The position numbers and the translations under genes are program-made. A model generated the notes under the pieces. The model did no database searches, was not told the DNA's origin, and saw nothing but the letters and a program-made list of their open reading frames with translations. 64,000 nt of DNA, from the NCBI GenBank assembly GCA_036403155.1, contig DASWRM010000079.1:62001-126000 (forward strand), read 5' to 3'. Shown here one piece after another: positions 18,734 to 37,339 of this stretch (positions are counted from its first letter, which is position 1; each line of letters begins with the position of its first letter). Source of the stretch: Gaiellales bacterium (GTDB taxonomy: Bacteria > Actinomycetota > Thermoleophilia > Gaiellales > JAICJC01).

Positions 18734-19042
18734 TCAGATCTCGATCTGGACCGCTCCGTCCGACTCGCGCGCCGGGTAGGTGGTCAGCGACTCGACAGCC
18801 GGCCCGACCAGCGCCTCGCCCGAGCGGATGTCGAAATAGGACCCGTGGCAGTAGCACTCGACCCGGTGCTCGACGAACTCCCCTTCCCACAGCGGGCACT
18901 CCTCGTGCGTGCAGTAGCCGTCGAACGCGAACAGCGCTCCGTCCCGGCGGGCCACCACCACCGGCTCGCCGCGAACGTCGACCTGCAGCATCTCGCCCTC
19001 CGGGACGTCTTCCGGCGTCCCGACCGTCGTCCACTCCGCCAT
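18734..19042 (-). CDS. Rieske [2Fe-2S] ferredoxin
   Basis: The 102-residue product carries CTHEECPLW and CYCHGSYFD, the CxH...CxxH ligands of a Rieske cluster, with no membrane anchor. Soluble Rieske ferredoxins usually deliver electrons to ring-hydroxylating oxygenases. Here it is the last gene of a ten-gene operon that contains a P450 and an HpaB-type oxygenase but no Rieske oxygenase, so its partner is open. The ATG at 19042 has GAGGG about five bases upstream, overlapping the end of the glutamine-synthetase-like gene. A slightly longer start at 19054 is less likely. Confidence 0.92.
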   Translation of the reverse strand: MAEWTTVGTPEDVPEGEMLQVDVRGEPVVVARRDGALFAFDGYCTHEECPLWEGEFVEHRVECYCHGSYFDIRSGEALVGPAVESLTTYPARESDGAVQIEI

Positions 19043-19050
19043 CACAACCC

Positions 19051-20376
19051 TCACAGGTGGTGCGTGTACTCGCGAAACTCCCAGTCGGTCACGTACTTCT
19101 TCGCGCGGTCGAGCTCGTTGCCCTTGATCGTGAGGAAGGTCGAGACCAGCTCCTCACCCATCGCGTCCTTGATCACGCTGTCCGCGTCGAGCGCCTCGAG
19201 CGCCGCGTCGAACGTGCGGGGCAGCGGCATGCACTCGCCGGCCCGCTCGTCCTCGTAGATCAGCCCGACGAACGGCTCCGGCGGCTCGAGCTCGCGCGCG
19301 ATCCCGTCCAGGCCGGCGAACAGCGCCGCCGCCGCCGCCAGGTACACGTTCGCGGCCCCGTCGCCCAGCCGCAGCTCGATGCGCGTGGCACCGCCGCGCT
19401 CGCGCGGCACCCGCGCGAGGCACAGGCGGTTGTCGTGCCCCCAGCTGACGAGCGTCGGCACCAGCGCCTCCTCGATGATGCGGCGGTAGGCATTCGTCGT
19501 CGGGTTGAAGAAGGCCATCAGCGCCGGCCCGTGCTCGAGCAGCCCGGCGAGGAAGTGGTGCGCGACGTCCGACAGGCCCTCGCCGCGGTCGCCGTTCAGC
19601 AGGTTCACCCCGCTGTCGTCCGACAGCGACAGGTGCAGATGAAAGCCCGACCCCTCGTCGTCGTTCCACGGCTTGCCGATGAACGTCGCCAGCAGGCCGT
19701 CCAGCACCGCCATCTCCTTGACCAGGTTCTTGAACAGGTACGCCCGGTCGGAGGCGTCCAGCGCCTCGGAGTGCCGCAGGTTGATCTCGTACTGTGCGCG
19801 TCCGAACTCGTGGTTGGCCGCGTAGGTGTCGAGGCGCATGTCTGAGGACGCGTGCAGCATCCGCCGCAGGAGGTTCTTCGGATCGGCCATCGCGCCGACG
19901 GTGTAGACGTGGCTGTCGTTGTCGACGTACCGGCGGTAGCCGTTCGGGGCAGTCGGGTCGGGCGTGCACAGGTAGAACTCGAGCTCTGGGCCGAGCACCG
20001 GCACGAGCCCGCGCTCGGTGTAGCCGGCGATCGCCCGCTTCAGCACGCCGCGGGAGTCGACCCCGTACGGCGAGCCGTCCATCCGCTCGAGGTCGGCCAG
20101 GCACACCGCCACCTCGGGGTCCCAGGGCACGCGGCGAAGCGTCGCCTCGTCGGGCCGCGCCACGATGTCCTGGAACCCGTGCTCGAACCCCGCGACCACG
20201 TTGTGGCGCAGGTCGACCGTCATGATCGCCTCGCAGTAGGCGGCGCCGTCCTCGATCAGGTGCTGGAAGTACCCGGCGGGGAACTCCTTTCCGCGCGCGA
20301 TGCCGTGCAGGTCGGGATAGCTCAGGCGCACCGTCGTGACGCCGTCCTTGACGAGCTGATCCAGCGTTTCGGCCAT
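19051..20376 (-). CDS. Glutamine-synthetase-like gamma-glutamyl ligase
   Basis: The 441-residue product has the glutamine synthetase core: metal-binding GPELEFYL, HEFGRAQYEIN and GSGFHLHLSL, the NPTTNAYRR segment, and ARVPRERGGATRIELRLGDGAANVYLAAAA. It lacks a recognisable adenylylation-site tail. In an operon with oxygenases and an aldehyde dehydrogenase, and with a PuuD-like hydrolase nearby, it is more likely to join glutamate to an amine (as PuuA does for putrescine or TdnQ for aniline) than to assimilate ammonia. The ATG is 35 bases after the P450 stop and has AAAGGGCGG upstream. Confidence 0.85.
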   Translation of the reverse strand: MAETLDQLVKDGVTTVRLSYPDLHGIARGKEFPAGYFQHLIEDGAAYCEAIMTVDLRHNVVAGFEHGFQDIVARPDEATLRRVPWDPEVAVCLADLERMDGSPYGVDSRGVLKRAIAGYTERGLVPVLGPELEFYLCTPDPTAPNGYRRYVDNDSHVYTVGAMADPKNLLRRMLHASSDMRLDTYAANHEFGRAQYEINLRHSEALDASDRAYLFKNLVKEMAVLDGLLATFIGKPWNDDEGSGFHLHLSLSDDSGVNLLNGDRGEGLSDVAHHFLAGLLEHGPALMAFFNPTTNAYRRIIEEALVPTLVSWGHDNRLCLARVPRERGGATRIELRLGDGAANVYLAAAAALFAGLDGIARELEPPEPFVGLIYEDERAGECMPLPRTFDAALEALDADSVIKDAMGEELVSTFLTIKGNELDRAKKYVTDWEFREYTHHL

Positions 20377-20411: not shown

Positions 20412-21659
20412 CTACGCGGTCGTCACCCGGACGGGCATCGACTTGTACGCGTTGGTGAAGTTGGAGTGCAGCCGCCGCGCCGGCCCCCCCGGCTCGACCG
20501 CGGTGACGCGCGGGAGCAGCTCTTCGAACATGATCCGCGTCTCGAGCTTCGCGAGGTGCGCGCCCAGGCAGAAGTGCGGGCCGCCGCGTCCGAAGGTGAT
20601 GTGGTTGTTCGGCTTGCGTGTGACGTCGAAGCTGTGCGGGTCCGGGAACTGCCGCTCGTCGTAGTTGCCCGAGATCAGCCACACGACCACCTTATCGCCC
20701 TCGCGGATGCGCTCGCCGTGCAGCTCGACGTCGGCCGTCGCGGTGCGCCGAAAGTGGATGACCGGCGACGCCCAGCGCATGATCTCCTCCGTCGCGGTCG
20801 TCATCAGCTCCGGCTGCTCCCGCAGGCGCTGCATGACGTTCGGGTTCTCCATCAGCACCTGCATGCCGTGTGCGATCGACTGGCGGGTCGTCTCGTTGCC
20901 GGCCACGACCAGGAGCAGGAACATCGTGTCGAACTCCCGCTCGGTGAGGCGGTTGCCGTCCTCGTCCTCCCACATCACGAGCTTCGACACCAGGTCGTCG
21001 CGGGGATCCTTTCGCCGTTCGGACGCGATCCGGTGCCCGTAGTTGAACAGCTCCATCGCGAAGGGGCTGCGGAACGGGTACAGGCGGTACTTCGCGCTCT
21101 CCGGACTGGCCGGGTGGAGCCCGCCGAGGTCGGGGTCCGTGTTGCCGATCATCTTGTCGCCCCACTCGATCAGCTGCTCGTCGTCCTCGAGCGGCACGCC
21201 CAGGATGCGGCAGAGCACCTGGATCGGCAGCTCCTTTGCGACCTCCTCGACGAAGTCGAACTCACCCTTCGGCAGCGCGTCGTCGAGGATCTGCCTCGTC
21301 AGCGTGCGCAGCAGGTCCTCGTATGCGGCCACGGCTCGCGGAGTGAACCCCTTGTTCACGATCGCGCGCAGGCTCGAGTGCTTCGGCGGGTCCGTGTCGA
21401 GCATCGACTTGCGCGCCGCGAGCTGGTCGGGGTCGAGGTCCTCGAGCGCGGTCGCGCCCGTCTCCGAGGAGAACGTGCGCCAGTCCTTCATCACGGCGAC
21501 GACGTCGTCGTAGCGGGTGATGCACCAGAAGCCGTTGCCGTGCTCCCAGTCGTACCAGTGCACGGGCGACTCGTTGCGGAGCAGCTCGAACGTCTCGTGG
21601 GGGACGCGCTCGGCAAACGCGTCGTTGTCCAGGTAGACATCGGACAGCGTGATGCTCAT
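20412..21659 (-). CDS. Cytochrome P450
   Basis: The 415-residue soluble P450 shows the I-helix oxygen-activation motif VVAGNETTRQ, the ExxR pair in EEIMRW and the heme-thiolate loop FGRGGPHFCLGAHLA. The style of the K-helix to heme region resembles actinobacterial CYP124/125/142-type enzymes acting on hydrophobic substrates, but the substrate cannot be read. The ATG overlaps the stop of the aldehyde dehydrogenase (ATGA). No ferredoxin reductase is in the operon. The only iron-sulfur protein nearby is the Rieske ferredoxin two genes on. Confidence 0.93.
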   Translation of the reverse strand: MSITLSDVYLDNDAFAERVPHETFELLRNESPVHWYDWEHGNGFWCITRYDDVVAVMKDWRTFSSETGATALEDLDPDQLAARKSMLDTDPPKHSSLRAIVNKGFTPRAVAAYEDLLRTLTRQILDDALPKGEFDFVEEVAKELPIQVLCRILGVPLEDDEQLIEWGDKMIGNTDPDLGGLHPASPESAKYRLYPFRSPFAMELFNYGHRIASERRKDPRDDLVSKLVMWEDEDGNRLTEREFDTMFLLLVVAGNETTRQSIAHGMQVLMENPNVMQRLREQPELMTTATEEIMRWASPVIHFRRTATADVELHGERIREGDKVVVWLISGNYDERQFPDPHSFDVTRKPNNHITFGRGGPHFCLGAHLAKLETRIMFEELLPRVTAVEPGGPARRLHSNFTNAYKSMPVRVTTA

Positions 21660-23110
21660 CTCGTCGTCCCGTCCGAGATCTGGAGCGTCTTCAGATCCGA
21701 GTAGAAGTCGAGCGCGTAGTCGCCCCCCTCGCGGCCGATGCCGCTGATGCCGATGCCGCCGAACGGGGCCGTCAGGTCGCGGATCAGGAACGTGTTGACC
21801 CAGACGGTGCCCGCGCGCACGGCGCGCCCGACCCGCTCCGCACGCTCGTGCGACCCGGTGTAGACGATGCCGGACAGCCCGTAGCGGGTCGAGTTCGCGA
21901 GGGCGATGGCCTCGGTCTCGTCGTGGAAGGCCTGGAAGGTCAGCACGGGCCCGAACACCTCTCGCTGGACGACCTCGGAGTCGTTCGACCGCGGCTCGAT
22001 CAGCGTCGGCTCGTACCAGAGCCCGCCGATCTCGGCTCGGCGGCCGCCGCGAACGATCCGGTCGCCGGCCGCTCTGGCCCGCTCCACGAAGCCCTCGACC
22101 CGCGCCAGGTGGTCGGGGTGGATCAGCGGAGAAATGGTGGTGCGCTCATCGCGCGGGTCGCCCAGCACCTGGGCATCGACACCGGCATGGAACCGCGCGA
22201 GGAACGCGTCGCGCACCGATTCCTCGACCAGCAGCCGGGTGCCCGCCAGGCAGACCTGGCCGGCGTCGTCGTACTGGCCGGCAGCCTTCGCGGCGGCGGC
22301 GTCGAGGTCGGCGTCCGCGAACACGATCAGCGGCCCCTTGCCCCCGAGCTCTGCCGTGAACGGGACGAGGTTCGCCGCGGCCGAGAGGCCTATAGAGCGG
22401 CCGGTCTCCGGCGAGCCGGTGAAGCTGATGCGGCGGACGCCTTCGTCGGACACCAGCGCGGCGCCCGCCTCCTCTCCGATCCCCTGCAGCACGTTGAACA
22501 CGCCGGGCGGGAACCCCGCCTGCGCCGTCAGGTCGGCGAGCAGCGAGCAGGAGAGCGGCGCCCACTCGGGTGGCTTCAGGATCACCGTGCAGCCGGCTGC
22601 CAGCCCGGGCGCCGTCTTCCAGGTCGACAACATGAACGGGGCGTTCCACGGCGTGATCACGGCCGCCGGGCCGCTCGGCATGCGGATCACGCGGTTCTGG
22701 GTGCCGTTCGACTCCCACACGCGCTCCTGGTAGCCGGCCGCCAGGTCGGCGTAGGCGCGGAAGTTGCGCGCGCCGCGTGCGATCACCCGGGCCTTGAGCG
22801 AGCGCTCGAGCATGGCCATGTCGAGGCACTCGACCGTCGCGATGCGATCGATGTTCGCGTCGATCAGATCCGCAAGGCGGCGGAGCACCCGTCCGCGGCC
22901 TTCTGCTCCCATCGCCGCCCACTCGGGCCAGGCCGCCCGGGCCGCCTCGACCGCTGCGGCCGCCTCCCGCGCGCCCCCGCGGGCGACGTGCGCCAGCACC
23001 TGCGCGTCGATGGGCGAGATCACCTCGAAGCGGTCGTCGCTCCCGACCCGCTCGCCGCCGATGTAGTGGTCGGGCGAGACGTCGATGTCGACCTTCGCCG
23101 AGGCGCTCAC
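21656..23110 (-). CDS. Aldehyde dehydrogenase, 2-hydroxymuconic-semialdehyde (HpaE/DmpC-like) type
   Basis: The 484-residue NAD(P)-dependent enzyme has the general base Glu in TAELGGKGP and the nucleophile Cys in GQVCLAGTRL. The C-terminus RDLTAPFGGIGISGIGREGGDYALDFYSDLKTL is the pattern I associate with 2-hydroxymuconic-semialdehyde dehydrogenases, including HpaE, rather than betaine or succinate-semialdehyde dehydrogenases. It would oxidise the semialdehyde made by the extradiol dioxygenase of the same operon. The start is a GTG overlapping the SDR stop (GTGA), and its stop overlaps the P450 start. Confidence 0.9.
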   Translation of the reverse strand: MSASAKVDIDVSPDHYIGGERVGSDDRFEVISPIDAQVLAHVARGGAREAAAAVEAARAAWPEWAAMGAEGRGRVLRRLADLIDANIDRIATVECLDMAMLERSLKARVIARGARNFRAYADLAAGYQERVWESNGTQNRVIRMPSGPAAVITPWNAPFMLSTWKTAPGLAAGCTVILKPPEWAPLSCSLLADLTAQAGFPPGVFNVLQGIGEEAGAALVSDEGVRRISFTGSPETGRSIGLSAAANLVPFTAELGGKGPLIVFADADLDAAAAKAAGQYDDAGQVCLAGTRLLVEESVRDAFLARFHAGVDAQVLGDPRDERTTISPLIHPDHLARVEGFVERARAAGDRIVRGGRRAEIGGLWYEPTLIEPRSNDSEVVQREVFGPVLTFQAFHDETEAIALANSTRYGLSGIVYTGSHERAERVGRAVRAGTVWVNTFLIRDLTAPFGGIGISGIGREGGDYALDFYSDLKTLQISDGTTR

Positions 23111-23883
23111 GACTGAAACTCCATCAACCCGATCTCCACCGCGCTCATCCCGCCGTCGACCGTGATCACGCTGCCGTTCACATACGCGGCGGCCGGTGAC
23201 AGCAGCCAGGACACGAGTCCGGCCACCTCCTCGGGGTCGCCCGGCCGGCGGACGGGGGCGCGACGGGTCGCCAGTGCGTAGGCGCCCTCACGATCGGTGC
23301 CATGGATGGCTGCGAGGTCGTCCATGGAGCCGTCCGCCATGTCGGTGCGGATCCATCCGGGGCACACGGCGTTCGCCCGCACGCCGCGCGGGCCGAAGTC
23401 GACTGCGATCGACCGCACGGCCATGTTGAGGCCCGCCTTGCTCGTGCAGTAGGCGGCCGATCCGGCGCCCGCGCGCAGCCCGCCGACGGACGAGATCGCG
23501 ACGAGCGACCCGCGGCGGTCGACGAGGTGGGGGAGCGCCGCGCGCGCCGTCAGGTAGAAGCCGGTCAGGTTGACCCGCAGCACCTCGTCCCAGCCGGCCG
23601 GATCCTGTTCGACCACGTCGCCGCCGCCGGCGATCCCGGCGCACCACGCCAGCGCGTCGATGCCCCCGTGGGCGTCGACCGCCGCCTGGACGGCCGCCTC
23701 GGCCTGGACGCGGTCCCCACAGTCCGCCGTCACGGCCAGGCCGCCGATCTCGGCGGCCACCGCATCGAGCGGTGCTCGCCGGCGGCCCGCGACGACCACG
23801 TCGTAGCCGTCGGCCGCCAGCCGCCGGGCCACGGCCGAGCCGATGCCGCTTCCGCCGCCGGTGACCAGAGCGCAGCGGATCAC
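23107..23883 (-). CDS. Short-chain dehydrogenase/reductase
   Basis: The 258-residue classical SDR has TGGGSGIG for the cofactor, NLTGFYLTARAALPH, catalytic Ser in AISSVGG and the YxxxK pair in AAYCTSKAGLNMAV, then PGWIRTDMA. The residue after strand 2 (VAGRRR) is basic, favouring NADP(H), though this is a weak guide. In the operon it may oxidise an alcohol or a cis-diol-type intermediate. The start is a GTG that overlaps the upstream stop as GTGA, and it is coupled likewise to the aldehyde dehydrogenase. Confidence 0.9.
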   Translation of the reverse strand: MIRCALVTGGGSGIGSAVARRLAADGYDVVVAGRRRAPLDAVAAEIGGLAVTADCGDRVQAEAAVQAAVDAHGGIDALAWCAGIAGGGDVVEQDPAGWDEVLRVNLTGFYLTARAALPHLVDRRGSLVAISSVGGLRAGAGSAAYCTSKAGLNMAVRSIAVDFGPRGVRANAVCPGWIRTDMADGSMDDLAAIHGTDREGAYALATRRAPVRRPGDPEEVAGLVSWLLSPAAAYVNGSVITVDGGMSAVEIGLMEFQS

Positions 23884-24668
23884 GGCTCGACGGTCTCCAG
23901 GTCGTCCACCGTGTAGGCGAACTGGAAGCGGAACCCTTCGCCGACCCGCACCGGCGCGAGCGCGTCGTGCTCCTCCCCAGGTGCCGGATGCAGACGCAGC
24001 GTGGCCGGACCGACCCGGATCTCGGACGCCGAGCGGTCGCTCGACCGCGCGCGGACGAGCTCGTCGACGGCTGGGTCATTCCACCGGCCGGCGGCGAGGC
24101 GGGGGAAATGGCGCCGGTTCAGCAGCGGCGGGTCGTTGTGCGTCGGCCCAGACTGGCTGACGCGCTCGGGCGTGACGGTGCCCTCGGCGAGCAGCCGCCC
24201 GTGTGCCGTCAGCGTGCCGGCGAACGTCCGGCCCTCGGCCCTGCAGTCGAGGCCGAAGCTGCGCGTGATGTGGACGTCCCCGAGCTTCTTCGGGAACCCC
24301 TGGATCCATCCCCGGATCAGGGCGAAGTCCTTGTCGACCCAGATGTAGGGGCAGGTCGTGACGTGCTCGTCGCCGAGCATGGCGTTGACGACGATGAAGA
24401 ACTCCTTGTACTGCCCGCGCACGGGGTCGAGCAGCTCGGCGCCCGAGTCGGAGCACGACTGCCAGTCGACGAACAGGGCGGCGCAGCGGCCGGGGTCGTC
24501 CGGGTAGGGGGCAAGCCGCGGAGGGAGCACGGCGGCGACCGCGTCGGGCTCCGCCCAGTACTCGATCACCAGGAAGTCGCCGACGTAGTGCCAGGGCGGC
24601 GATGGGATGATCGACGCCATGCCACCGGGTGAGAGCGGCAGCGAGAAGCCCTTCGGGCCGCCGTTCAC
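23880..24668 (-). CDS. Acetoacetate decarboxylase family protein
   Basis: The 262-residue product reads YWAEPDAVAAVLPPRLAPYPDDPGRCAALFVDWQ...YKEFFIVVNAML...CPYIWVDKDFALIRGWIQGFPKKLGDVHITR. The FPKK segment is where the family keeps its Schiff-base lysine. Besides acetoacetate decarboxylases, the family includes aldolase-dehydratases that use pyruvate. In a meta-cleavage operon a pyruvate-handling lyase would fill a gap. The start is a GTG at 24668 overlapping the previous stop (GTGA). The longer open frame upstream is a shadow of neighbouring genes. Confidence 0.85.
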   Translation of the reverse strand: MNGGPKGFSLPLSPGGMASIIPSPPWHYVGDFLVIEYWAEPDAVAAVLPPRLAPYPDDPGRCAALFVDWQSCSDSGAELLDPVRGQYKEFFIVVNAMLGDEHVTTCPYIWVDKDFALIRGWIQGFPKKLGDVHITRSFGLDCRAEGRTFAGTLTAHGRLLAEGTVTPERVSQSGPTHNDPPLLNRRHFPRLAAGRWNDPAVDELVRARSSDRSASEIRVGPATLRLHPAPGEEHDALAPVRVGEGFRFQFAYTVDDLETVEP

Positions 24669-24949
24669 GGCCGCTCCAGCGAGCCGACCACTTCGTACAT
24701 GATCGCCTCGTCGGCCGGTGCCACGTCGATCCCCAGCCGCTCGCGTGCCGCCTCGATCTCCCGCATTGCGTCCTCGGCGGCCTCCGGATCGTCGAACACC
24801 GTGATCGAGACCGCGGAGCCGTCGGGCGCCATGCAGTGGTAGAGCGCGTGCACGCCCTCCACGCCGCGCAGCGACTCGATCACCCATTCCGACCGGTCGA
24901 GCCCGAGATCGTCGCGCCCGGCGGCGAACCGGGCCACGCGCACGATCAC
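24665..24949 (-). CDS. Small ABM-like (dimeric alpha/beta barrel) protein, 94 aa
   Basis: The 94-residue product (MIVRVARFAAGRDDLG...LRGVEGVHALYHCMAPDGSAVSITVFDDPEAAEDAMREIEAARERLGI) has the strand-helix pattern of the antibiotic-biosynthesis-monooxygenase/ferredoxin-like fold. Such small proteins can be cofactor-free monooxygenases or stability partners. The GTG start at 24949 overlaps the HpaB stop by four bases (GTGA), and its own stop overlaps the next GTG. This coupling is strong evidence that it is a real gene despite its size. It sits where many hpa clusters keep the flavin reductase HpaC, but it is not one. Confidence 0.78.
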   Translation of the reverse strand: MIVRVARFAAGRDDLGLDRSEWVIESLRGVEGVHALYHCMAPDGSAVSITVFDDPEAAEDAMREIEAARERLGIDVAPADEAIMYEVVGSLERP

Positions 24950-28696: not shown

Positions 28697-29523
28697 GGGC
28701 GGTGCGGTTCGTCGATCCCGGGGGCGAGGTGAAGCTCGGCCGGCTGGACGGAGACACGGTCGTCGAGGCCGGGCCGGCCGGCCCGCGCGGGTTCATCCCG
28801 GATCGGGACGGGTGGGAGCGGATCGCCAACGCGTCGGGTATCGGGCACCAGGTCGACGATGTGCGGCTGCTGCACCCGACGTCGCCCGGCAAGCTGATGG
28901 CGATTGGCCTGAACTACCGCGACCACGCGGAGGAGTCGGAGCTGGACATCCCGGCGGTGCCGGTGGTGTTCGCAAAATGGACGACGTCGCTGATCGGGCA
29001 CCGGGAGCCGATCGTCGTGCCTCGTGAGGAGACGCGCCCGGACTACGAGGGGGAGGTCGCGGTCGTGCTCGCGCACGACGTGTACCGCGCGAACGAGGAT
29101 CAGGCGCGGGCCGCCGTCGGCGGCATATCGGCGTTCCATGACGTTTCGGGCCGGCGCGCGCAGCTCGAGACCCCGCTGCGGCAGTTCACGCTGGGGAAGA
29201 GCTTCGATACCTTCGCGCCGATGGGCCCGAGCGTCGCAAGCGCGGACGGCCTCGATCTCGGGGACATCGACATCTCGACGTCGGTCAACGGCGAGGAGCG
29301 GCAGTCGTCGAACACGCGGAATCTGATCTTCTCGGTCGTCGACCTGATCGTCTACCTGTCGAAGGGGATGACGCTGCAAGCGGGCGACATCATCGCGACC
29401 GGCACACCCGGCGGAGTGGGGGACTCCCGGCAGCCGCCGGCGTACCTCGGCGAGGGTGACGTGGTCGAGGTGCGGGTGACCGGCGTGGGGACGCTGTCGA
29501 ACCCGGTGACGCTGGAGGGATGA
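28693..29523 (+). CDS. Fumarylacetoacetate hydrolase family protein
   Basis: The 276-residue product shows the C-terminal FAH catalytic domain: IGLNYRDHAEE, FAKWTTSLIGH, DYEGEVAVVLAHDVYR, HDVSGRRAQ and IIATGTPGGVGDSRQPPAYLGEGDVVEV. It is a second, diverged FAH protein beside the one starting at 28216. The pair could share the HpaG (decarboxylase) and HpaH (hydratase) steps. The ATG overlaps the CMD stop by four bases. Confidence 0.9.
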   Translation: MRAVRFVDPGGEVKLGRLDGDTVVEAGPAGPRGFIPDRDGWERIANASGIGHQVDDVRLLHPTSPGKLMAIGLNYRDHAEESELDIPAVPVVFAKWTTSLIGHREPIVVPREETRPDYEGEVAVVLAHDVYRANEDQARAAVGGISAFHDVSGRRAQLETPLRQFTLGKSFDTFAPMGPSVASADGLDLGDIDISTSVNGEERQSSNTRNLIFSVVDLIVYLSKGMTLQAGDIIATGTPGGVGDSRQPPAYLGEGDVVEVRVTGVGTLSNPVTLEG

Positions 29524-29804: not shown

Positions 29805-31400
29805 CTACGCCCGGTGCACGACCCGGCCGTCGACAACCGTCAGCAGCACCGGCAGCTGCGGTAGATCGTCCGCGTCGCATTCGACCGGATCTTCCGCGAA
29901 CGCCGTCAGATCCCCCCGGAAGCCTGGCGCGATTCGCCCTGCCAGCGCCTGGTCATCGACCGCCCGGGCCGCGTGGGTCGTGTAGCCCTCGAGGGCCTCG
30001 ATCCCCGTGAGCCGCTGCTGCGGCAGGTACGCATCCGCCGCGCGGTCGCCGGGATGGCGGCGCAGGCGCGCCCAGGCCATGCCGGCCCGCGGGTCGTACC
30101 CCGCGACCGGCCAATCAGAGCCAAGCGCCAGCACCGCTCCCGTCCGGCGGATCTCGCCGATCCGGAATGCGCGGCCCGCCCGGTCGCGACCGAGCGAGGT
30201 GCTCCACGGGTCGCTCATGTCGGGCCGCATCCACTGCAGGTGGATGGCCTGCTGGGACGCCACGACGCCCTCCGCGGCGAAGCGGGGAAGCTGGTCGTCC
30301 TGGAGCGTCTCGATGTGCTCGACCCGGTGGGGCCCCCGCGCCACGCGACCCGCCCGCCGGTACGCGTCGAGCGCACACCGCACGGCGCGGTCGCCGATCG
30401 CATGGGTGATGGAAGGAGCGCCCGCGCGCGCGAACCGCGCGATCGCCTCCGCGTACCGCTCGGGGTCGGGCCAGTTCGGCTCCGTGCCGCGGCCATGGGT
30501 GTCCGGCTGCTCGAGCCACGCGGTGCCTGACTCGACTACGCCGTCGATGAAGAACTTCGCCCAGCCCGACCGCCACAGCCGTCCACCCTGCGCGCCGGCC
30601 GCAATCGCCTCGTCGATCTCGTCGTCGGTCATCGCCGGCTGCACGGTGAACGGCACGACCTGGCGGACGGTGAGCCGGTCGGTGCGCTCGAGGTCACGGC
30701 ACTCGTCGGGCGTTGCGAGCGTCCCGTCCATCATGTGGCACGCGGTCAGCCCGACACGGTTCATCGCCGCGAGCGCATCCGCGATCAGCTCGAGGCGCTC
30801 GTCGCGGGTCGGCTCGGGCATCGCCACGGCGACCAGCTGGACGGCGTTCTCACGCAGCTCACCGGTCGGGCGCCCGTCGGGCCGGCACACGATCTCGGAG
30901 GCGTCGTCGAATGTGCGAGCGCCCGTGATCCCGGCCGCCGCCAGTGCGGGCGGGGTGGCGATCGCAGTATGGAAGTCGAAGAAGCTGAGCAGGGCCGGGT
31001 TACCGCCCACCGCCGCCTCGAACAGCTCGCCGCTCGCCTCGATCCCGTCGAATACCCGGTACTCGAGCGAATAGCCCGTGATCCATGCGCCCTCGCCGCA
31101 GCGGCGCCGCTCCTGGGCCAGCCGTTCGCGCACCTCGTCCACCGTAGCCGCGCCGGAGAGGTCGGCTCCGCGGGTCTCGAGCGCGCCCATGAACGGATGC
31201 ATGTGGCTGTCGGTAAGCCCGGGCACGATCGCCATCCCGGCGCCGTCGAGGTGCTCGGACCCTGCCGGAGCGGCACGGCGCACCTCATCGTCGTCACCGA
31301 CGGCAACGATGGTGCCCTCGGCGATGGCGAGAGCCGTTGCCTGGGGACGAGACGGGTCGAGCGTCCGCACCCGGGCGCCCGTGACGAGCAGATCGTGCAT
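29805..31400 (-). CDS. Amidohydrolase family protein (YtcJ-like)
   Basis: The 531-residue product has the amidohydrolase barrel of YtcJ type: the metal-binding DSHMHPF after VPGLT, ITHAIGDRAVR, HRVEHIETL and LGSDWPVAGYDPRAGMAWAR. These hydrolyse amide or imide bonds of unknown substrates in the cytoplasm. The ATG at 31400 follows TAGCGT on the minus strand by seven bases, so it may have its own leaderless promoter, although it also lies only 5 bases after the GntR gene. In this context it could cleave an N-acyl amine, which is a guess. Confidence 0.88.
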   Translation of the reverse strand: MHDLLVTGARVRTLDPSRPQATALAIAEGTIVAVGDDDEVRRAAPAGSEHLDGAGMAIVPGLTDSHMHPFMGALETRGADLSGAATVDEVRERLAQERRRCGEGAWITGYSLEYRVFDGIEASGELFEAAVGGNPALLSFFDFHTAIATPPALAAAGITGARTFDDASEIVCRPDGRPTGELRENAVQLVAVAMPEPTRDERLELIADALAAMNRVGLTACHMMDGTLATPDECRDLERTDRLTVRQVVPFTVQPAMTDDEIDEAIAAGAQGGRLWRSGWAKFFIDGVVESGTAWLEQPDTHGRGTEPNWPDPERYAEAIARFARAGAPSITHAIGDRAVRCALDAYRRAGRVARGPHRVEHIETLQDDQLPRFAAEGVVASQQAIHLQWMRPDMSDPWSTSLGRDRAGRAFRIGEIRRTGAVLALGSDWPVAGYDPRAGMAWARLRRHPGDRAADAYLPQQRLTGIEALEGYTTHAARAVDDQALAGRIAPGFRGDLTAFAEDPVECDADDLPQLPVLLTVVDGRVVHRA

Positions 31401-31405: not shown

Positions 31406-32068
31406 CTACGCTACCGCAGGCGCAACGGGTGGGTGTGCCTCAATGTGGACGCGGGTGAGCCGCTCCGCCTCGTCGGCGTCGCCGATCTCGATCGCATCCG
31501 TGATCCGCTCGTGCTCCTCGGCCCACGCCTCCACGCCGGCCGGCTCGGCGGCCTGAGCCTGGTAGATCGGCACGCCGATCCGCGGCACCCAGAGCATCTC
31601 GGCGAAGCGGGTGAGGTGCGGGTTGCCGGACGCGGTGGCGAGGGCGATGTGGAACGCGCGGTTCGCGGCGAAGCTGCCGGCCTTGTCCTCCGCCGCGGCC
31701 CGCTGCTGGGCGATCGCGCCGCGCATGGCCGCGATCGCGCCGGCGTCCCGCCGCTCGGCGGCCAGTCGCGCGGCGCCCGGCTCGAGCGCGACCCGCGCCG
31801 ACCACGCGTGCCGCATGTCGCCGAAGTCGAGCTCGGACACGGTGGCTCCGCGATTGGGGGAGAACTCGACGAGGCCCTCGGTCGACAGCCGGCGCAGCGC
31901 CTCGCGGAGCGGCGTGCGCGACACGCCCAGCTCGTCGGCCAGCGACGCCTGCCGGAGCTTGGTGCCGCGCGGCAGATCGCCCGACAGGATGCGCTCGCGG
32001 AGCGCCGAATAGACGTGGTCGACGACGCTCTGGATCTGGAGCGGCCCGATGGCCGGCTGGACGCTCAT
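31406..32068 (-). CDS. GntR family (FCD subfamily) transcriptional regulator
   Basis: The 220-residue product has the N-terminal winged helix-turn-helix (DHVYSALRERILSGDLPRGTKLRQASLADELGVSRTPLREALRRLSTEGLVEF) and an all-helical FCD ligand domain with metal-binding His residues (FHIALATASGNPHLTRF and near the end HIEAH). It sits between the catabolic operon and a permease. Near-identical operator-like sites occur at its own promoter, the permease promoter and the FAH-operon promoter. I chose the ATG at 32068. The one at 32083 would overlap the -10. Confidence 0.9.
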   Translation of the reverse strand: MSVQPAIGPLQIQSVVDHVYSALRERILSGDLPRGTKLRQASLADELGVSRTPLREALRRLSTEGLVEFSPNRGATVSELDFGDMRHAWSARVALEPGAARLAAERRDAGAIAAMRGAIAQQRAAAEDKAGSFAANRAFHIALATASGNPHLTRFAEMLWVPRIGVPIYQAQAAEPAGVEAWAEEHERITDAIEIGDADEAERLTRVHIEAHPPVAPAVA

Positions 32069-32073
32069 GGTCT

Positions 32074-32107
32074 TTGCATACATTACGCCGTCGTCGTGCC
32101 CGGTCAA
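32074..32107 (-). promoter_or_regulatory. Promoter and autoregulatory operator of the GntR gene
   Basis: On the minus strand TTGACC (32102-32107), 16 bases and TAATGT (32080-32085) form a promoter. The -10 is part of AATGTATGCAA, which differs by one base from AATGTATCCAA at the divergent permease promoter. Overlap of operator and -10 suggests negative autoregulation. Confidence 0.6.
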
Positions 32108-32118: not shown

Positions 32119-32157
32119 TTGACAGCCGTCCGCGTCGGATGCGAATGTATCCAATCG
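32119..32157 (+). promoter_or_regulatory. Promoter and operator of the APC permease gene
   Basis: TTGACA (32119-32124), 18 bases and GAATGT (32143-32148) form a promoter whose -10 lies in AATGTATCCAATCG (32144-32157). The 12-mer TGTATCCAATCG recurs in inverted orientation at 28214-28225 upstream of the hydrolase operon, 3.9 kb away. In this GC-rich sequence a chance match is unlikely. Confidence 0.65.
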
Positions 32158-32177: not shown

Positions 32178-33752
32178 ATGGCAGCAACGGCACCGTCGCC
32201 GACTCGTGGCGGTGAGTTGGGCGAGCGGCGGCTCGGGACGATCCACGCGGTCGCGCAGGCGCTCGCGATCGGGCCCATGTTCTCGGTCGCGCTCGTGTTG
32301 GGAGGGGTGTCCCGCCCCGATATCGGCGCCGGCTGGAACGCCGCGCTGGCGGTGCTGGTCGCCGGCGCGGGAGTGCTCGCCATCGCCTACTCGCTGTCGC
32401 TGTTCGCGCGGCAGTTCGCGGGTGCGGGAGCCGTCTATGAGTATCTCACCCACGGCGCGCACCCAAGTCTCGGCATCTTCACGGCCGGCATCTTCTTCGT
32501 CGGCACGCTGTTCCTCGGCGGCGGCGGCATCTACCTCGGGCTCGGCATCCTCGCCAACGGCTTCTGGGCCGCCCACATCGGCGATGCGAGCAACGCACCG
32601 GCCTGGTGGGTGCTCGGCGGCATCGCGCTCGCCATCGTGCTCGCCCTCAACTACCTCGGCGTTCGCATCGCGATCCGCGCCATGCTCACGTTCGCGGCCA
32701 TCTCGTTCATCCCCATGCTGCTCCTGGCACTGATCATCATCGTCAAGGACGGCGAGGGCGGAAACACGCTGACGATGTTCAACCCGGGCGAGACGTCGCT
32801 GTTCGGCGTCACGGGCGGCGGTGTGCTGGGCGGCGTGCTGCTCGGCATCCTGCTCTTCGTCGGCTTCGAGGCGGCCGCGTCGATCGGCGAGGAGAGCGCC
32901 GACCCGCATCGCTCGATCCCCCGGGCACTGCTCTGGACGGTCGGCGTCTCGAGCGTCTTCTTCGTGATCATGGCCTACGCGTTCTCGATCGGCTACGGCA
33001 AGGGCGCCGTCTCGCAGGGCGCGTGGGCGTTCTCGACCGGCCCCGTGGACGAGATGGCGACGAAGTACGTGGGCAGCTGGTACGCGACGATCCTGGACAT
33101 GGTGGTCATCCTGGACGCACTGGCGCTTGCGCTCGCCATCTGCGTGACGATCGGCCGCGGCTACTTCGCGCTCGCGCGCGACGGCCTCCTGCCCTCGGCG
33201 TTCGCGCGCACGTCCCGGCACAACACCCCGTGGGTGGGGAACCTGATGGTCGCCGTCGGCGGCATCGGCCTTGCCGTGCTGGTCAGCCTGATGAACTACG
33301 GCACCAAGTTCACGATCCCAACGCCCAAGGGCTCGGTGCCGCTGTTCCCGAACGACGAGTTTGCGACGTTCATCGTGTCGGCCACCGCGGGGTCGTTCGT
33401 GATCGAGCTGGTGTACCTGATCCTGGCCGTTGTGGCGGTTCGCCTGCTGGTGCGCAACCAGGCGGCGGCGTGGTGGCAGTACCTTGTGGTGCTGGTCGCG
33501 ATCGCGACCCCGATCCTGGGGTTCTACGGCGCGCTCAACCCCGATCCGCACGACCGCTCGAACTACAACTGGGAGGCCCTGTACTGGGGGCTGATCGTCG
33601 TGGTGCTCTCCGGCGTCTGGTTCGCCATCTGCCGGGCGATGTTCCCCGACCGCGTCCGCAACGCCGCGATGCACGCCGCCGACCACCAGGGCGTGCCGCC
33701 GCTCGACGAGAACGTCGACTTCACGCCGGCGCCTCCCGACAGCACGATCTGA
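32178..33752 (+). CDS. APC family amino acid/amine permease
   Basis: The 524-residue membrane protein has about twelve hydrophobic spans. It includes the APC signature region near the first helices (TIHAVAQALAIGPMFSVALVLGG) and the conserved GFEAAASIGEESADPHRSIPRAL of the sixth to seventh helix region. Substrates of the family are amino acids, polyamines and related amines. The ATG at 32178 has GAGGAGGGA upstream. It is divergent from the GntR gene and shares its operator motif, so its substrate is probably the inducer's source. Confidence 0.92.
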   Translation: MAATAPSPTRGGELGERRLGTIHAVAQALAIGPMFSVALVLGGVSRPDIGAGWNAALAVLVAGAGVLAIAYSLSLFARQFAGAGAVYEYLTHGAHPSLGIFTAGIFFVGTLFLGGGGIYLGLGILANGFWAAHIGDASNAPAWWVLGGIALAIVLALNYLGVRIAIRAMLTFAAISFIPMLLLALIIIVKDGEGGNTLTMFNPGETSLFGVTGGGVLGGVLLGILLFVGFEAAASIGEESADPHRSIPRALLWTVGVSSVFFVIMAYAFSIGYGKGAVSQGAWAFSTGPVDEMATKYVGSWYATILDMVVILDALALALAICVTIGRGYFALARDGLLPSAFARTSRHNTPWVGNLMVAVGGIGLAVLVSLMNYGTKFTIPTPKGSVPLFPNDEFATFIVSATAGSFVIELVYLILAVVAVRLLVRNQAAAWWQYLVVLVAIATPILGFYGALNPDPHDRSNYNWEALYWGLIVVVLSGVWFAICRAMFPDRVRNAAMHAADHQGVPPLDENVDFTPAPPDSTI

Positions 33753-33834: not shown

Positions 33835-35094
33835 TCAGACGCGCGCGGGCGCCACGGCGGAGAGCGTCTCCGCGAACACGTCCGCGACGCGCGCGATCTC
33901 GTCCTCGTCGATCACGAACGCCGGCGACACCTGAAGCGAATGGCCGGCGAGCCCGCGGGTGAGAACGCCGCGGTCGCGGCACCCCCGGACGAGCCGCTCG
34001 ACGAGACCGGGGTCGGCCGCGCGCGCCTCGCCGTCGATCTCGACCGCGGCCAGCAGACCGACGCCGCTTCGCACCTCGTGCACCAGGGGCAGCTCCGCGA
34101 GCGGCTGCATGGCCTCGTGCAGCACCGGCTCCAGGCGCGACACGCGCTCGACCAGGCCCTCCCGCTCGATCACGTCGAGGTTGGCGAGCCCGGCCACGCA
34201 GACGCTCGGATGGCCGGAGTACGTGTAGCCGTGCCGGAACATCGCTCCGCCGGGCGCAGACCAGAACGGCTCCTGCACCCGCGGTGACGCGATCACGGCG
34301 CCGAGCGGCAGGTAGCCGGAGGTGATGCCCTTCGCGCACGTGATCATGTCGGGCGTGATGCCGAACCGGTGGCTGCCGAACCAGGTGCCCAGGCGGCCGA
34401 AGCCGCAGATCACCTCGTCGGCGATCAGCAGCACGTCGTGCCGGCGGCAGAGCTCCTGGACGCGATCCCAGTACCCGGGAGCGGGCGCGAACACGCCGCC
34501 GGCGCCGATCACCGGCTCGCCGATGAACGCTGCGATGCGGTCGCCCTGCTCGACGAACACCTGCTCGAGCGCGTCGGTGTCGTCACTGCCGACCGAGACC
34601 GTGTCCGGAATCAGCGCGCCGATGCCCTCGCGGTTGGCCGGGATGCCGGCCAGGCTGGTGCCATACGCGTTCATGCCGTGGTAGCTGCGCTCGCGGTGCA
34701 CGATCAACCGCTTCTCGGGCTTGTCGAGCGCCGACCAGTAGCGGAGCGCGAGCTTGCTCGCCGTGTCGACCGCGTCGGAGCCGCCGCTGGTGAAGAACAC
34801 GGCGCCGCCGGCCACGGGCGCCAGCGCAGCAACCCGCTCAGCCAGCTCGATCGCCGGGCGGTTCGCGGTGCTTCCGAAGACGTCGTATGCCTCGAGCTCA
34901 CGCATCTGCGCGGCCACGGCGTCGCTGATCTCGGCGCGGCCATGGCCGATCGCGCAGTACCAGAGACCGCCCTTCGCGTCGATGTACTCGCGACCCTGGT
35001 CGTCCCAGACGCGCGCGCCGCGCCCCTTCGCGATCACCAGCTCGTCGTCCTTGACGGCGGCCATATCGGCGAACGGATGCCAGAGGCTGCTCAT
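33835..35094 (-). CDS. Class III (omega) aminotransferase, PLP-dependent
   Basis: The 419-residue product has the class III pattern: GLWYCAIGHGRAEI, FFTSGGSDAVDTASKLA for the phosphate loop, ADEVICGFGRLGTWFG with the PLP Asp, and TCAKGITSGYLPLGAV with the Schiff-base Lys. It would move an amino group from a primary amine such as GABA or another omega-amine to a keto acid. The ATG overlaps the PuuD-like stop (ATGA). The permease-hydrolase-aminotransferase order resembles the lower half of Puu-type polyamine pathways. Confidence 0.92.
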   Translation of the reverse strand: MSSLWHPFADMAAVKDDELVIAKGRGARVWDDQGREYIDAKGGLWYCAIGHGRAEISDAVAAQMRELEAYDVFGSTANRPAIELAERVAALAPVAGGAVFFTSGGSDAVDTASKLALRYWSALDKPEKRLIVHRERSYHGMNAYGTSLAGIPANREGIGALIPDTVSVGSDDTDALEQVFVEQGDRIAAFIGEPVIGAGGVFAPAPGYWDRVQELCRRHDVLLIADEVICGFGRLGTWFGSHRFGITPDMITCAKGITSGYLPLGAVIASPRVQEPFWSAPGGAMFRHGYTYSGHPSVCVAGLANLDVIEREGLVERVSRLEPVLHEAMQPLAELPLVHEVRSGVGLLAAVEIDGEARAADPGLVERLVRGCRDRGVLTRGLAGHSLQVSPAFVIDEDEIARVADVFAETLSAVAPARV

Positions 35095-35804
35095 GCTGCG
35101 GACGATACCAGCGCCCGGAACAGGCTCGCGCCGCCGCCCTCGGCGTCGGCGTCGGGATGCCAGAGCACCCCCACGCAGAACCGCCGCGCGGGATCCTCGA
35201 GGCCCTCGGCGACGCCGTCTGGCACCGACGTCGCGCTGACCACCAGCCCCTCGCCGATACGGTCTGCGCCCTGGTGGTGGTGCGAGTGCACCGTGGCCCG
35301 CTCGCCGACGATCGAGCGGAGGCGTGAGCCATCCTCGGTAACGATCTCGTGGACGCCGTAGGTCGCGTCGTCCTCGCGGTGGGGGCGCTGGTCGAGGCGG
35401 TCGGCCAGGTGCTGCTCGAGCGTGCCGCCGCGCGCGACGTTCAGCACCTGGAATCCCCGGCAGATGGCAAGCACGGGCATGTCACGGTCGAGCGCGCGAC
35501 GCATCAGCGAGAGCTCCACCGCGTCGCGGCGCTCGTGGCGCGGACCGGTGCGCTCGTGGCGCTCGGCGCCGTACTCCTCCGGCGCCACGTCGTCGCCACC
35601 GACGAACACCATCCCATCGAGCAGGTCGAGCACGTCATCCGGATCGTCGACGAGGTGAGGATCGGCCGGGATCACCAGCGGACGCCCCCCGGCCAGGCGG
35701 GTGCCCTCGATGTAGCCGTGAAACGTCACCGCCGCGCGGGCGCGCCACGTGCCGACCTGGACATCGGTCCAGTAGCTGGTTATCCCGATCGTGGGGCGGT
35801 TCAA
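35091..35804 (-). CDS. Gamma-glutamyl-gamma-aminobutyrate hydrolase-like class I amidotransferase (PuuD/TdnT type)
   Basis: The 237-residue product is a stand-alone glutamine-amidotransferase-fold hydrolase. It shows IGITSYW at the start, the nucleophile Cys in VLAICRGFQVLNVARGGTLEQH, and the His in GVLWHPDAD, where the usual WHPE is WHPD. PuuD removes the glutamyl group from gamma-glutamyl-GABA. In aniline clusters the related TdnT works with a glutamine-synthetase-like ligase, and such a ligase is encoded at 19051. The start is TTG at 35804, overlapping the permease TGA as TTGA. No ATG or GTG fits the family N-terminus. Confidence 0.87.
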   Translation of the reverse strand: MNRPTIGITSYWTDVQVGTWRARAAVTFHGYIEGTRLAGGRPLVIPADPHLVDDPDDVLDLLDGMVFVGGDDVAPEEYGAERHERTGPRHERRDAVELSLMRRALDRDMPVLAICRGFQVLNVARGGTLEQHLADRLDQRPHREDDATYGVHEIVTEDGSRLRSIVGERATVHSHHHQGADRIGEGLVVSATSVPDGVAEGLEDPARRFCVGVLWHPDADAEGGGASLFRALVSSAA

Positions 35805-37339
35805 TCGCCTGCCGTCGCCGCCGTCGAGGCTGCCGCCGGCGAGAGCGGGATGTCGACGCTGCGCTGCCGAAGCCCGGTGCCGGCGATGTAGCCGATCAGC
35901 GCGAAGGCGATCACGAGCGCGAGCGTCCCCAGGGTGAACACCTCGAACCGCAGCCGCGAGACGCCCCAGTAATCCTTGAACCCGTAGTCGGCACCGAAGA
36001 GGTACTCCAGCGTGTCGGGGAAGATCGCCACCCAGGAGCCCATCAGCGTCCAGAAGGTGCAGATCCCTCCGACGATCCAGAGCCCCGCGTTTCCGCCGCT
36101 GACGAGGAACACCCGCGGTAGGTGCGGGTGCGAGTACCGCAGCTTGATCAGCGTGGGGAAGATCAGGATGTAGGACACCAGCGTTGTCGAGATGGCCATG
36201 TACAGCACGACGGCGAACGTGTCGGCCTCGCTGCTCGACAGCAGCTTCACGGCGAGCACCATGAAGATCGTCGACGTGACGCCGGAGAGCACGTTCACGC
36301 GGACGGGGGTGCCGAACCGCTCGTTGAACACGCCGAACCAGGGGAAGAAGGCGCCGTCGTAGGCGGCGACGGCCTGGATCCGGTCCGAGCCCATCATCCA
36401 GACGGCACCAGACGTGACGAGGGCGAAGATGAACCCGAGCGCCATCAGGTCGGTCAGGAAGTTCTGAGCTCCGCCGTAGACGCCGAACATCGTGTGCACC
36501 GCGTCCATGAAGCCGCCGATGCCCGTGATCTTGGACGACGGCAGCACCGCGACGATGCCGAAGATCGGAATCGCGTAGGCCACGGCCGAGATGACCGCGC
36601 TCTTGGCGACCGAGCGCGGCACGTCCCGCTGCGGGTCGACCATCTCCTCGGCCGCGCCGTTCTGCAGCTCGAAGCCGACGAAGCCGAAGATCAGCAGCGG
36701 GACGAGGCCGATGAAGGTACCGGCCGTCGGCTTGAAGTCGCCGGCGCCATAGCCGTGAATGCCGTGCTTGATCGCGTAGACGACCACGGTCACCGAGAAC
36801 AAGCCGAGCACGAGGAACCGGATGATCGCGCCGGCGTTGGGGATCCACTTGCCGCGGCGAAGCGACACGATGGCGACGCCGATGCTGATCCAGATGAAGA
36901 CGAACTTGAAGGCATAGTCGCCGACCGTGCCGTTCCCGACGCCGTGGATGTTCGAGCTCCACGCCTCGGTGGCGGTGAAGCACAGCGAGCCGCCGACCCA
37001 GAAGGGGTTGGTCACCCAGTACAGGACCGCGCCGATTCCCGCGGCGAGCCGGCCCCAGCAGAGCTTCATCCACTCGTACGGGCCGCCCTCCTGAGGAAAC
37101 GCCGTCCCCAGTTCGGCCATCAGCAGGGCGTACGGGAACATGAAGAAGACCACGAGGAAGACGACCCACGTGAAGGCCTGCGCGCCGTAGCTCGCCGCCT
37201 GCCCCAGCAGGTCGAGGCCGACGATCGCGCAGACGGTGAAGAACACCATGTCCAGATGGCGCAGGCTCTTGACCAGCTTCGCCCTCTCATGGAGCGCGAG
37301 CTCAGTGGTCTGCTCGACCGGCGCGTCGTACGTTGCCAT
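35801..37339 (-). CDS. APC family amino acid/amine permease
   Basis: The 512-residue product has about twelve membrane spans, with HLDMVFFTVCAIVGLDLLG in the first helix, FPQEGGPYEWMKLCWGRLAAG, and GFVGFELQNGAAEEMVDPQRDVPRSV as the family signature. It differs clearly from the permease at 32178. The ATG at 37339 is backed by GGGAGG eight bases upstream. The upstream frame to 37366 is not needed. It is the first gene of an operon with the PuuD-like hydrolase and the aminotransferase. Confidence 0.92.
   Translation of the reverse strand: MATYDAPVEQTTELALHERAKLVKSLRHLDMVFFTVCAIVGLDLLGQAASYGAQAFTWVVFLVVFFMFPYALLMAELGTAFPQEGGPYEWMKLCWGRLAAGIGAVLYWVTNPFWVGGSLCFTATEAWSSNIHGVGNGTVGDYAFKFVFIWISIGVAIVSLRRGKWIPNAGAIIRFLVLGLFSVTVVVYAIKHGIHGYGAGDFKPTAGTFIGLVPLLIFGFVGFELQNGAAEEMVDPQRDVPRSVAKSAVISAVAYAIPIFGIVAVLPSSKITGIGGFMDAVHTMFGVYGGAQNFLTDLMALGFIFALVTSGAVWMMGSDRIQAVAAYDGAFFPWFGVFNERFGTPVRVNVLSGVTSTIFMVLAVKLLSSSEADTFAVVLYMAISTTLVSYILIFPTLIKLRYSHPHLPRVFLVSGGNAGLWIVGGICTFWTLMGSWVAIFPDTLEYLFGADYGFKDYWGVSRLRFEVFTLGTLALVIAFALIGYIAGTGLRQRSVDIPLSPAAASTAATAGD

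Follow-up and report, generated by a model that had tools for sequence, protein, structure and literature searches.

A stretch of 64,000 nucleotides from a Gaiellales bacterium (hereafter the window; part of contig C79 of the 3.2-Mb draft genome G000) carries ten co-directional genes on the minus strand, between positions 28216 and 18734, which together with their neighbours probably encode a glutamate-capped meta-cleavage pathway for an arylethylamine of the phenethylamine, tyramine or dopamine type. Judging from the comparisons described below, we put the probability of this reading at roughly 0.6. In 5' to 3' order the operon codes for an FAH-family protein (FAH1), an extradiol dioxygenase (EDO), an HpaB-like hydroxylase, a small protein, a protein of the ADC superfamily, an SDR oxidoreductase, an HpaE-like aldehyde dehydrogenase (ALDH), a cytochrome P450, a glutamine synthetase (GS)-like ligase and a Rieske ferredoxin (Table 1). 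An initial annotation had already proposed this ten-gene operon, and open reading frames, codon pattern and family scans agree for all ten genes. It had also described nearly all genes as joined by four-base overlaps, which holds with certainty for seven of the nine junctions and for an eighth, GS/Rieske, only when the GTG at 19054 is taken as the Rieske start codon (with a start at 19042 the junction is an 8-nt gap); the P450 and GS genes are separated by 35 nt. The same annotation had suggested an undescribed route for an aromatic amine. Comparison of related gene sets gives good support to a capped aromatic-amine route, but aniline is disfavoured as its substrate, and the neighbouring genes point to an arylethylamine that would leave the route as an intermediate of the Puu pathway.

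The ligase is distinct from GlnA

The GS-like ligase scored below the NCBIfam cut-offs for GlnA (TIGR00653, 288 against 429 bits), type III GS (307 against 470 bits) and PuuA (275 against 650 bits). In a tree of 59 rows it falls within a clade of 37 rows (support 99/97), with E. coli GlnA and PuuA outside, although PuuA sits on a long branch and its exact place is unsure; of GlnA, PuuA, IpuC, TdnQ and AtdA1, the tree included the first two. The ligase retains the GlnA metal and glutamate site residues E129, E131, E212, E220, H269, E357, R321, R339 and R359. GlnA residues D50, Y179 and E327, which we take to form the ammonium site, are replaced in the window ligase by C, V and L, respectively, and among the 14 other clade members displayed, one has V at the D50 site and one has T at the E327 site. 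An excerpt of PMC11335346 describes a loss of conserved GS catalytic residues in the organic-amine ligase NpaA1 as well. The initial annotation had named a grouping with GlnA as one result that would refute its proposal. The tree and the lost ammonium-site residues show, at the level of sequence, that the ligase is not of the GlnA type, and an ammonia-assimilating GlnA was set aside on this ground.

Conservation and linkage of the gene set

The gene content of related loci was taken from tblastn. With the HpaB-like protein as query, a scan of the genome collection returned 19 loci, 18 in actinobacterial drafts (70-93% identity) and one in a sphingomonad (38%), and by this protein the closest named relatives of the window genome are Thermoleophilia draft genomes. 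FAH1, EDO, ADC and ALDH recur in the 18 actinobacterial loci. The GS and P450 genes are present in the HpaB loci L009, L010, L011, L013, L015, L016 and L023, with a more distant GS in L012 (43%) and L026 (42%), while neither GS nor P450 was found in the stretches compared of L014 and L017; the contigs of several HpaB loci are short.

With the ligase as query, 99 of 396 genomes of the phylum gave a match at E ≤1e-60, and the identities showed a gap, with 17 places at or above 44% and none of the others above 41%. Sixteen of these 17 places (all except the window) were compared, and in 14 of them at least four of the five core genes (ADC, EDO, FAH, HpaE-like ALDH and P450) lie close by; L072 has two (P450 and ADC) and L059 none. 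HpaB gave no match within these 16 stretches, but at least the genome of L059 (G005) has an HpaB match on another contig.

Linkage was counted in loci selected by the ligase alone, with hits picked from the top of the list and at steps below it, not at random, and with clade membership taken from the 59-row tree. The 25 clade loci comprise all 19 of a first ligase-based selection and 6 of the 16 GS loci of a second; the 18 outside rows come from 11 loci, the other 10 of the second selection and an Acinetobacter plasmid. At least three core genes lie within 11 kb of the ligase in 18 of the 25 clade loci, compared to none of the 18 outside rows. The genomes in this sample are in part related and do not count as independent, and where contigs are short, clade loci are undercounted. 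The counts leave out two outside rows located in clade loci (L060_13538, which would be positive, and L075_14887) and the Streptomyces canus plasmid L028, which the ligase also found and which has all five genes. Across the 37 clade rows, the ligase has P450 nearby in 31, ADC in 28 and HpaB in 9, and in 10 rows LigB, of an unrelated family, replaces the EDO while the other genes stay. This LigB-type EDO in place of the VOC type is also what the Streptomyces plasmids and a Novosphingobium plasmid carry. The ADC protein occurs in 48 of the 396 genomes, 46 of which also carry the ligase (Fisher p 9e-30, without correction for kinship); 33 of the 48 ADC genes, that of the window included, lie within 15 kb of the ligase gene.

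The check for recurrence that the initial annotation had proposed thus came out in its favour: the gene set is found in further families of the phylum and, in varied form, on Streptomyces and Novosphingobium plasmids. HpaB, which the initial annotation had listed among the Hpa-type steps, is by these counts a dispensable component. The set is common to many relatives of this soil-type actinobacterium and apparently undescribed, as a literature search limited to one open-access library yielded, among the papers listed, no description of this pathway.

Some related loci differ in composition. A second P450 gene lies between the ligase and Rieske ferredoxin genes in relatives (L009:17364-18548, backed by Pfam, and L010:16417-17589), and is missing in the window. 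In L019 (2977-9905) and its counterparts in L018, L020, L021, L025 and L026, FAH1 and HpaB are separated by genes for an APC permease, an acyl-CoA-dehydrogenase-like protein and a carbon-nitrogen hydrolase, in some of these regions together with an alpha/beta hydrolase gene, and such clusters may be a variant of the set that serves another substrate. The record of L018 is titled as a Bifidobacterium breve metagenome-assembled genome, yet its cluster matches the drafts L019-L021, L025 and L026, and the label looks wrong. On the plasmids of S. canus (L028) and Streptomyces lunaelactis (L079) a transposase gene is found close to the set, and it may therefore move between strains.

A likely aldolase of the ADC superfamily

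The ADC-superfamily protein, whose presence had been recorded correctly but without a role, is likely the aldolase of the set. It is 46% identical to the 4zbo chain, which we take to be Sbi00515. Sbi00515 condenses pyruvate with aldehydes and has aldolase-dehydratase activity. The motif G-[FY]-P-K-K-L-G is present in all 34 ADC rows aligned, including the 4zbo fragment, and its PKK element, retained in the window protein, presumably holds the Schiff-base lysine. In an excerpt of PMC7820114, MppR-type proteins are proposed as the aldolase of archaeal phenol meta-cleavage. Unlike MppR and Sbi00515, the ADC protein described here is a regular member of a ring-cleavage set, which suggests a physiological aldolase role, and HpaI would then not be needed. 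Plasmids of Bradyrhizobium, Rhizobium, Tistrella and Aminobacter carry ADC relatives in other gene surroundings. On the Bradyrhizobium and Rhizobium plasmids (L078 and L082), tandem ADC-superfamily genes have regulators of the AraC or winged-helix type and terminal oxidase genes as neighbours; the ADC gene searched is 54-55% identical to the 4zbo fragment, and the stretches shown contain no annotated ring-cleavage gene.

Predicted route

We infer the substrate, the capping and each reaction from these comparisons. The GS-like ligase would couple glutamate to the arylethylamine, after which the P450, with the Rieske ferredoxin as electron donor and in this operon also the HpaB-like hydroxylase, would convert the ring to a catechol. 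The P450 and HpaB may catalyse successive hydroxylations here and the P450 act alone in other clusters, which is a guess. C364 of the P450 is nearly invariant in an alignment of 31 rows. The EDO would open the capped catechol by 2,3-cleavage to a hydroxymuconic semialdehyde; its residues H137, H192 and E244, which we take to be the H-H-E metal site, are nearly invariant in an alignment of 26 rows. The capped nitrogen would be unable to close onto the ring-cleavage aldehyde, whereas a free amine would give a pyrroline. The HpaE-like ALDH would oxidise the semialdehyde to the acid, FAH1, perhaps together with the second FAH-family protein (FAH2), would decarboxylate this acid to a 2-oxo-alk-3-enoate, and the MppR-type ADC protein, by way of its lysine, would carry out hydration and retro-aldol cleavage to pyruvate and gamma-glutamyl-4-aminobutanal. 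Counting carbons from a two-carbon side chain, the exit aldehyde would therefore be the Puu intermediate that PuuC uses as substrate, and a PuuC-type ALDH, PuuD and a class-III aminotransferase could take it to glutamate, gamma-aminobutyrate (GABA) and succinic semialdehyde. The PuuD-like hydrolase would take off the cap, and the aminotransferase would act on the omega-amino acid set free. The window has no separate PuuC-type ALDH, and the operon ALDH might act twice. In relatives, a linked pyridoxal phosphate (PLP)-dependent decarboxylase probably forms the amine from an amino acid.

Published chemistry is in line with several of these steps. According to an excerpt of PMC12311729, the products of L-DOPA 2,3-dioxygenase undergo spontaneous cyclisation through the amine of the side chain, and pyrrolines form from phenethylamine scaffolds. 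Because uncapped cleavage products cyclise, the chain would stay linear only with a cap, and the temporary cap put forward in the initial annotation fits this chemistry. The lincomycin-type L-DOPA enzyme likewise performs an extradiol cleavage of a dihydroxyphenyl-ethylamine skeleton, but there the free amine cyclises to a pyrroline in a biosynthesis (same excerpt), whereas here the cap would block this in a catabolic route. For the 4-hydroxyphenylacetate route, an excerpt of PMC12718150 reports that hydroxymuconate can isomerise non-enzymatically, that the decarboxylase and the isomerase can be two distinct FAH proteins working together, and that CHMS dehydrogenase, the semialdehyde dehydrogenase, also accepts succinic semialdehyde. 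By analogy, these data fit FAH1 and FAH2 working without HpaF, and one ALDH serving two steps.

By sequence, the gene set resembles parts of the Hpa, Puu and aniline systems and, on the points tested, corresponds to none of them. With E. coli Puu (putrescine, PuuA-PuuE) it has in common the predicted glutamate cap, a PuuD-like hydrolase, a class-III aminotransferase and an APC permease, to which part of the clusters add a PuuC-like ALDH, and its predicted exit product is a Puu intermediate. It differs in having ring-opening enzymes, in a ligase that belongs to another clade and scores under the PuuA cut-off, and in PuuB, which tblastn with the E. coli protein (E 1e-6) found neither in the window nor in the other loci searched. 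With Hpa/Hpc degradation of 4-hydroxyphenylacetate it shares a hydroxylase, extradiol cleavage, a semialdehyde dehydrogenase and an FAH-type decarboxylase in the same chemical order, but the predicted intermediates carry CH2-CH2-NH-Glu where those of the homoprotocatechuate sequence carry CH2-COOH, and an ADC protein, a P450 and a ligase are added.

Decarboxylases and Puu-like exit genes

A PLP amino-acid decarboxylase gene was found by tblastn near the ligase in 12 of the 25 clade loci and in none of the 18 rows outside. For the decarboxylases of L064 and of the window genome (contig C33), the best solved match is DOPA decarboxylase. That of S. lunaelactis best matches 5hsi, titled "putative decarboxylase" and presumably a tyrosine decarboxylase, followed by a non-canonical aromatic amino acid decarboxylase; its top NCBIfam model is tyrosine decarboxylase, far under cut-off. 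The C33 region (L097, G000:C33:52100-72000) contains two PLP decarboxylase genes, one of them 53% identical to that of L064, a LysR gene, a CoA-transferase gene and a flavin reductase gene, the latter approximately 0.9 kb from the decarboxylase compared with solved structures. This flavin reductase is a possible partner of the HpaB-like enzyme.

Two clusters combine ring-cleavage and exit genes. Locus L104 has within 20 kb a permease, a PuuC-like ALDH (seemingly frameshifted), a PLP decarboxylase, a GATase, a P450, the ligase, an HpaE-like ALDH (72%), an FAH protein, an ADC protein, an HpaD_Fe-like EDO of the LigB type, and a class-III aminotransferase that is cut off at the edge of the stretch and whose third-best model is a GABA transaminase (312/507 bits). 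S. lunaelactis pSLUN1 carries a permease, the ligase, an ADC protein, a PuuD-family hydrolase, a PuuC-like ALDH (554 of 850 bits), an HpaE-like ALDH, an HpaD_Fe-like EDO, an FAH protein and a PLP decarboxylase. Genes with at least 44% identity to PuuC are found near the ligase in 6 of the 37 clade rows. In the window, the PuuD-like protein matches Pfam family C26 and stays below the PuuD equivalog cut-off (Table 1).

Several observations weigh against an arylethylamine route. Two clade loci (L059 and L102) have no core gene close by. The best solved matches of the P450 are CYP125MRCA chains, followed by CYP125, CYP268 and CYP124, and CYP125 and CYP124 are known for lipid oxidation; the S. lunaelactis cluster gave no P450 match. 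With regard to the amine-forming step, 13 of the 25 clade loci have no decarboxylase within 11 kb, the identity threshold for those counted was low (30% for one query), and in five of six decarboxylases (L064, C33, L104, L108 and L101) the top NCBIfam model is diaminobutyrate decarboxylase, far under cut-off. The two decarboxylase queries used gave no match in the window, the nearest relative in its genome being the C33 gene on another contig. As to the exit, the only PuuC match in the window is the HpaE-like ALDH of the operon (39%), and GATase/PuuD genes lie near 20 of 25 clade ligases (absent in 5) but also near 9 of 18 outside; as they are just as common there, such hydrolases do not discriminate.

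Alternative substrates and pathways

Among the alternatives, capped meta-cleavage of another amine (a benzylamine, an amine with some other aryl-alkyl chain, or a cyclic amine whose ring the P450 would open) survives best, although we consider it unlikely. Mycobacterial morpholine and piperidine operons also pair a P450 with a GS-like gene, P450 is the commonest ligase neighbour in the clade, and L103, L075 and L076 have a P450 without EDO or ADC within the stretches compared. However, L103 and L076 end at contig ends and L075 has an ADC gene 27 kb from the ligase. A two-carbon side chain also agrees best with the decarboxylases linked to the set, with the PuuD, PuuC and aminotransferase genes that some clusters carry, and with the number of carbons.

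An aniline-type pathway (TdnQ/TdnT or AtdA1), in which a ring amine would be capped, converted by an oxygenase to a catechol and then meta-cleaved, is clearly less probable still. The aniline route proceeds from capping to oxygenation to meta-cleavage and uses a Rieske dioxygenase, whereas the ten operon proteins include a P450 and an HpaB-like oxygenase and, as the only Rieske protein, a ferredoxin of 106 amino acids; aniline as a substrate was set aside on this ground. The window does join a GS-like ligase, an amidotransferase-type hydrolase and meta-cleavage genes, and in aniline and naphthylamine degradation (AtdA1, TdnQ, NpaA1) a GS-like ligase also caps the amine before oxygenation and meta-cleavage, in part according to an excerpt of PMC11335346. 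From the same excerpt, NpaA1, which acts on aromatic amines, has V201 at what is apparently the GlnA Y179 site, where the clade also has V and AtdA1 keeps the GS-conserved Y. PuuA has V here too, so this residue does not single out ring amines. Furthermore, the set differs from the aniline systems by its ADC protein and Puu-like exit, and an aniline route would leave unexplained why other clusters carry decarboxylase, PuuC-like and aminotransferase genes. Two plasmid matches were rejected as aniline loci: glnT of the Acinetobacter plasmid sits with ammonium transporters and a glutamate-synthase-type gene, and the match on a Hydrogenophaga plasmid is partial, with no aniline cluster in the stretch shown.

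Least probable is an ordinary 4-hydroxyphenylacetate (homoprotocatechuate) operon with the GS-like gene as an unrelated passenger: HpaB-, HpaE- and HpaG-like proteins do share one operon, and L014 and L017 have an FAH-EDO-HpaB-ADC-SDR-ALDH core without GS or P450 in the stretch compared, but L017 comes from the same genome record type as G005, whose GS sits on another contig, the ligase and P450, unlike HpaB, accompany the set from family to family, and all four Hpa-like proteins (HpaB, HpaD, HpaE and HpaG-C models; Table 1) miss their NCBIfam equivalog cut-offs, HpaB by a small margin and the EDO by a large one. A homoprotocatechuate pathway is therefore not shown, and a plain Hpa route was set aside. 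HpaC and HpaI, reported as absent, are indeed missing among the proteins scanned in the operon and next to it, but the genome as a whole has flavin reductases at C33:65946 and C74:6728 and two HpcH/HpaI-family genes above cut-off on other contigs. HpaF (CHMI) gave no match among the scanned proteins of the operon and its neighbours either, and a genome-wide search with PF02962 was silent, as was its control.

Beyond the window, we see roughly even odds that the arylethylamine route is a widespread pathway of Actinomycetota, and of at least one alphaproteobacterium, that mineralises amino-acid-derived arylethylamines by capped ring opening and an MppR-type hydratase-aldolase, and takes the ring of tyramine or dopamine to pyruvate and GABA. 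If so, the MppR-like ADC family would gain a general catabolic role, and solved proteins of unclear cell function a physiological one. Two known strategies, gamma-glutamyl protection and extradiol cleavage, would merge into one biogenic-amine route, with the cyclisation of uncapped products as the reason for the cap, and GABA would be a predicted product of aromatic amines in soil and freshwater bacteria.

Other features of the operon and its surroundings

Table 1. Genes and operator-like motifs of the studied region. Scores written x/y give the bit score and the cut-off of the model.
Feature	Position	Strand	Evidence and remarks
FAH1, FAH-family, HpaG-like	27350..28216 (start 28216 or 28195)	-	First gene of operon; PF01557 192 bits; PRK12764 248/444; TIGR02303 HpaG-C 194/276
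EDO, VOC-family extradiol dioxygenase	26424..27353	-	TIGR03211 96 bits and TIGR02295 HpaD 92/321, both under cut-off
HpaB-like flavin-dependent aromatic hydroxylase, oxygenase part	24946..26427	-	TIGR02309 HpaB-1 427/480; best solved relative 2yyg, 348 bits
Small ABM-like protein, 94 aa, ferredoxin-like fold	24665..24949	-	Fold matches of a weak model
ADC-superfamily protein, MppR-like	23880..24668	-	PF06314 178 bits; TIGR04460 MppR 216/380; best solved relatives 4zbo, 4jm3
SDR oxidoreductase	23107..23883	-	PF13561, PF00106
HpaE-like ALDH	21656..23110	-	TIGR02299 HpaE 495/638; 39% identity to E. coli PuuC over 475 aa
Cytochrome P450	20412..21659	-	PF00067
GS-like ligase	19051..20376	-	PF00120 319 bits
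Rieske-type ferredoxin, 106 aa	18734..19054 (or start 19042)	-	PF00355 77 bits
Operator-like motif ATTGTATCCAATC	28217..28229	-	Directly before FAH1
CMD, carboxymuconolactone-decarboxylase family	28331..28696	+	PF02627; divergent from operon
FAH2, second FAH-family protein	28702..29523	+	PF01557 216 bits; six NCBIfam matches at E ≤1e-15, all under cut-off
Amidohydro_3-family protein	29805..31400	-	PF07969; among related loci seen only in L009
GntR/FCD regulator	31406..32083	-	PF00392, PF07729
Operator-like motif, second copy	32144..32156	+	One mismatch; before APC permease
APC-family permease	32178..33752	+	PF13520; start codon and frame checked
Class-III aminotransferase	33835..35094	-	PF00202 277 bits; 25 best of 69 NCBIfam matches all under cut-off; 29% identity to E. 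coli PuuE
PuuD-like, peptidase C26 gamma-glutamyl hydrolase family	35091..35804	-	PF07722 188 bits; PRK11366 PuuD 92/266; 31% identity to E. coli PuuD
Second APC-family permease	35801..37339	-	PF13520; best NCBIfam match glutamine/GABA antiporter 121/650

The small protein had been called ABM-like, which is plausible from its fold. An AlphaFold model built from two input sequences has a mean pLDDT of 68 and is similar to ferredoxin-like folds, ABM proteins among them, but no Pfam or NCBIfam family matched at E 0.001, which leaves the assignment weak. Among the related loci compared, a counterpart is found only in L009 and in its shorter copy L002.

The neighbours named in the initial annotation, the CMD-FAH pair, the PuuD-like hydrolase, the aminotransferase and the two APC permeases, were all recovered. 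FAH2 is a possible isomerase or hydratase partner of FAH1. The aminotransferase, PuuD-like and second permease genes form a three-gene operon on the minus strand (33835-37339), joined by 4-bp overlaps.

Allowing up to two mismatches, the motif ATTGTATCCAATC has 2 matches in the window against 0.11 expected, and two matches occurred in none of 100 shuffles. With its 10-base core and at most one mismatch there are 2 window matches against 0.22 expected, and two were seen in 1 of 100 shuffles. The strict motif also occurs directly before FAH1 in L009, L014 and L017, and in the gap between FAH1 and the permease in L018, L025 and L026, but in none of the remaining loci of the 123 compared, including the near relatives L010 and L011; a looser pattern matches without mismatch in 9 of the 123. 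The copies before the operon and the first permease thus tie these pieces together as predicted, operator-like elements, and the adjacent GntR protein is the natural candidate for the regulator of the set.

ARAGORN reported a tRNA-Leu (caa) at 26490-26580 on the minus strand, inside the EDO gene, which is probably a false positive. A tRNA-Leu (cag) gene lies just beyond the studied region (38380-38463, minus strand), and the window also contains a tmRNA gene (4160-4514, plus strand) with the tag peptide AESDLALAA.

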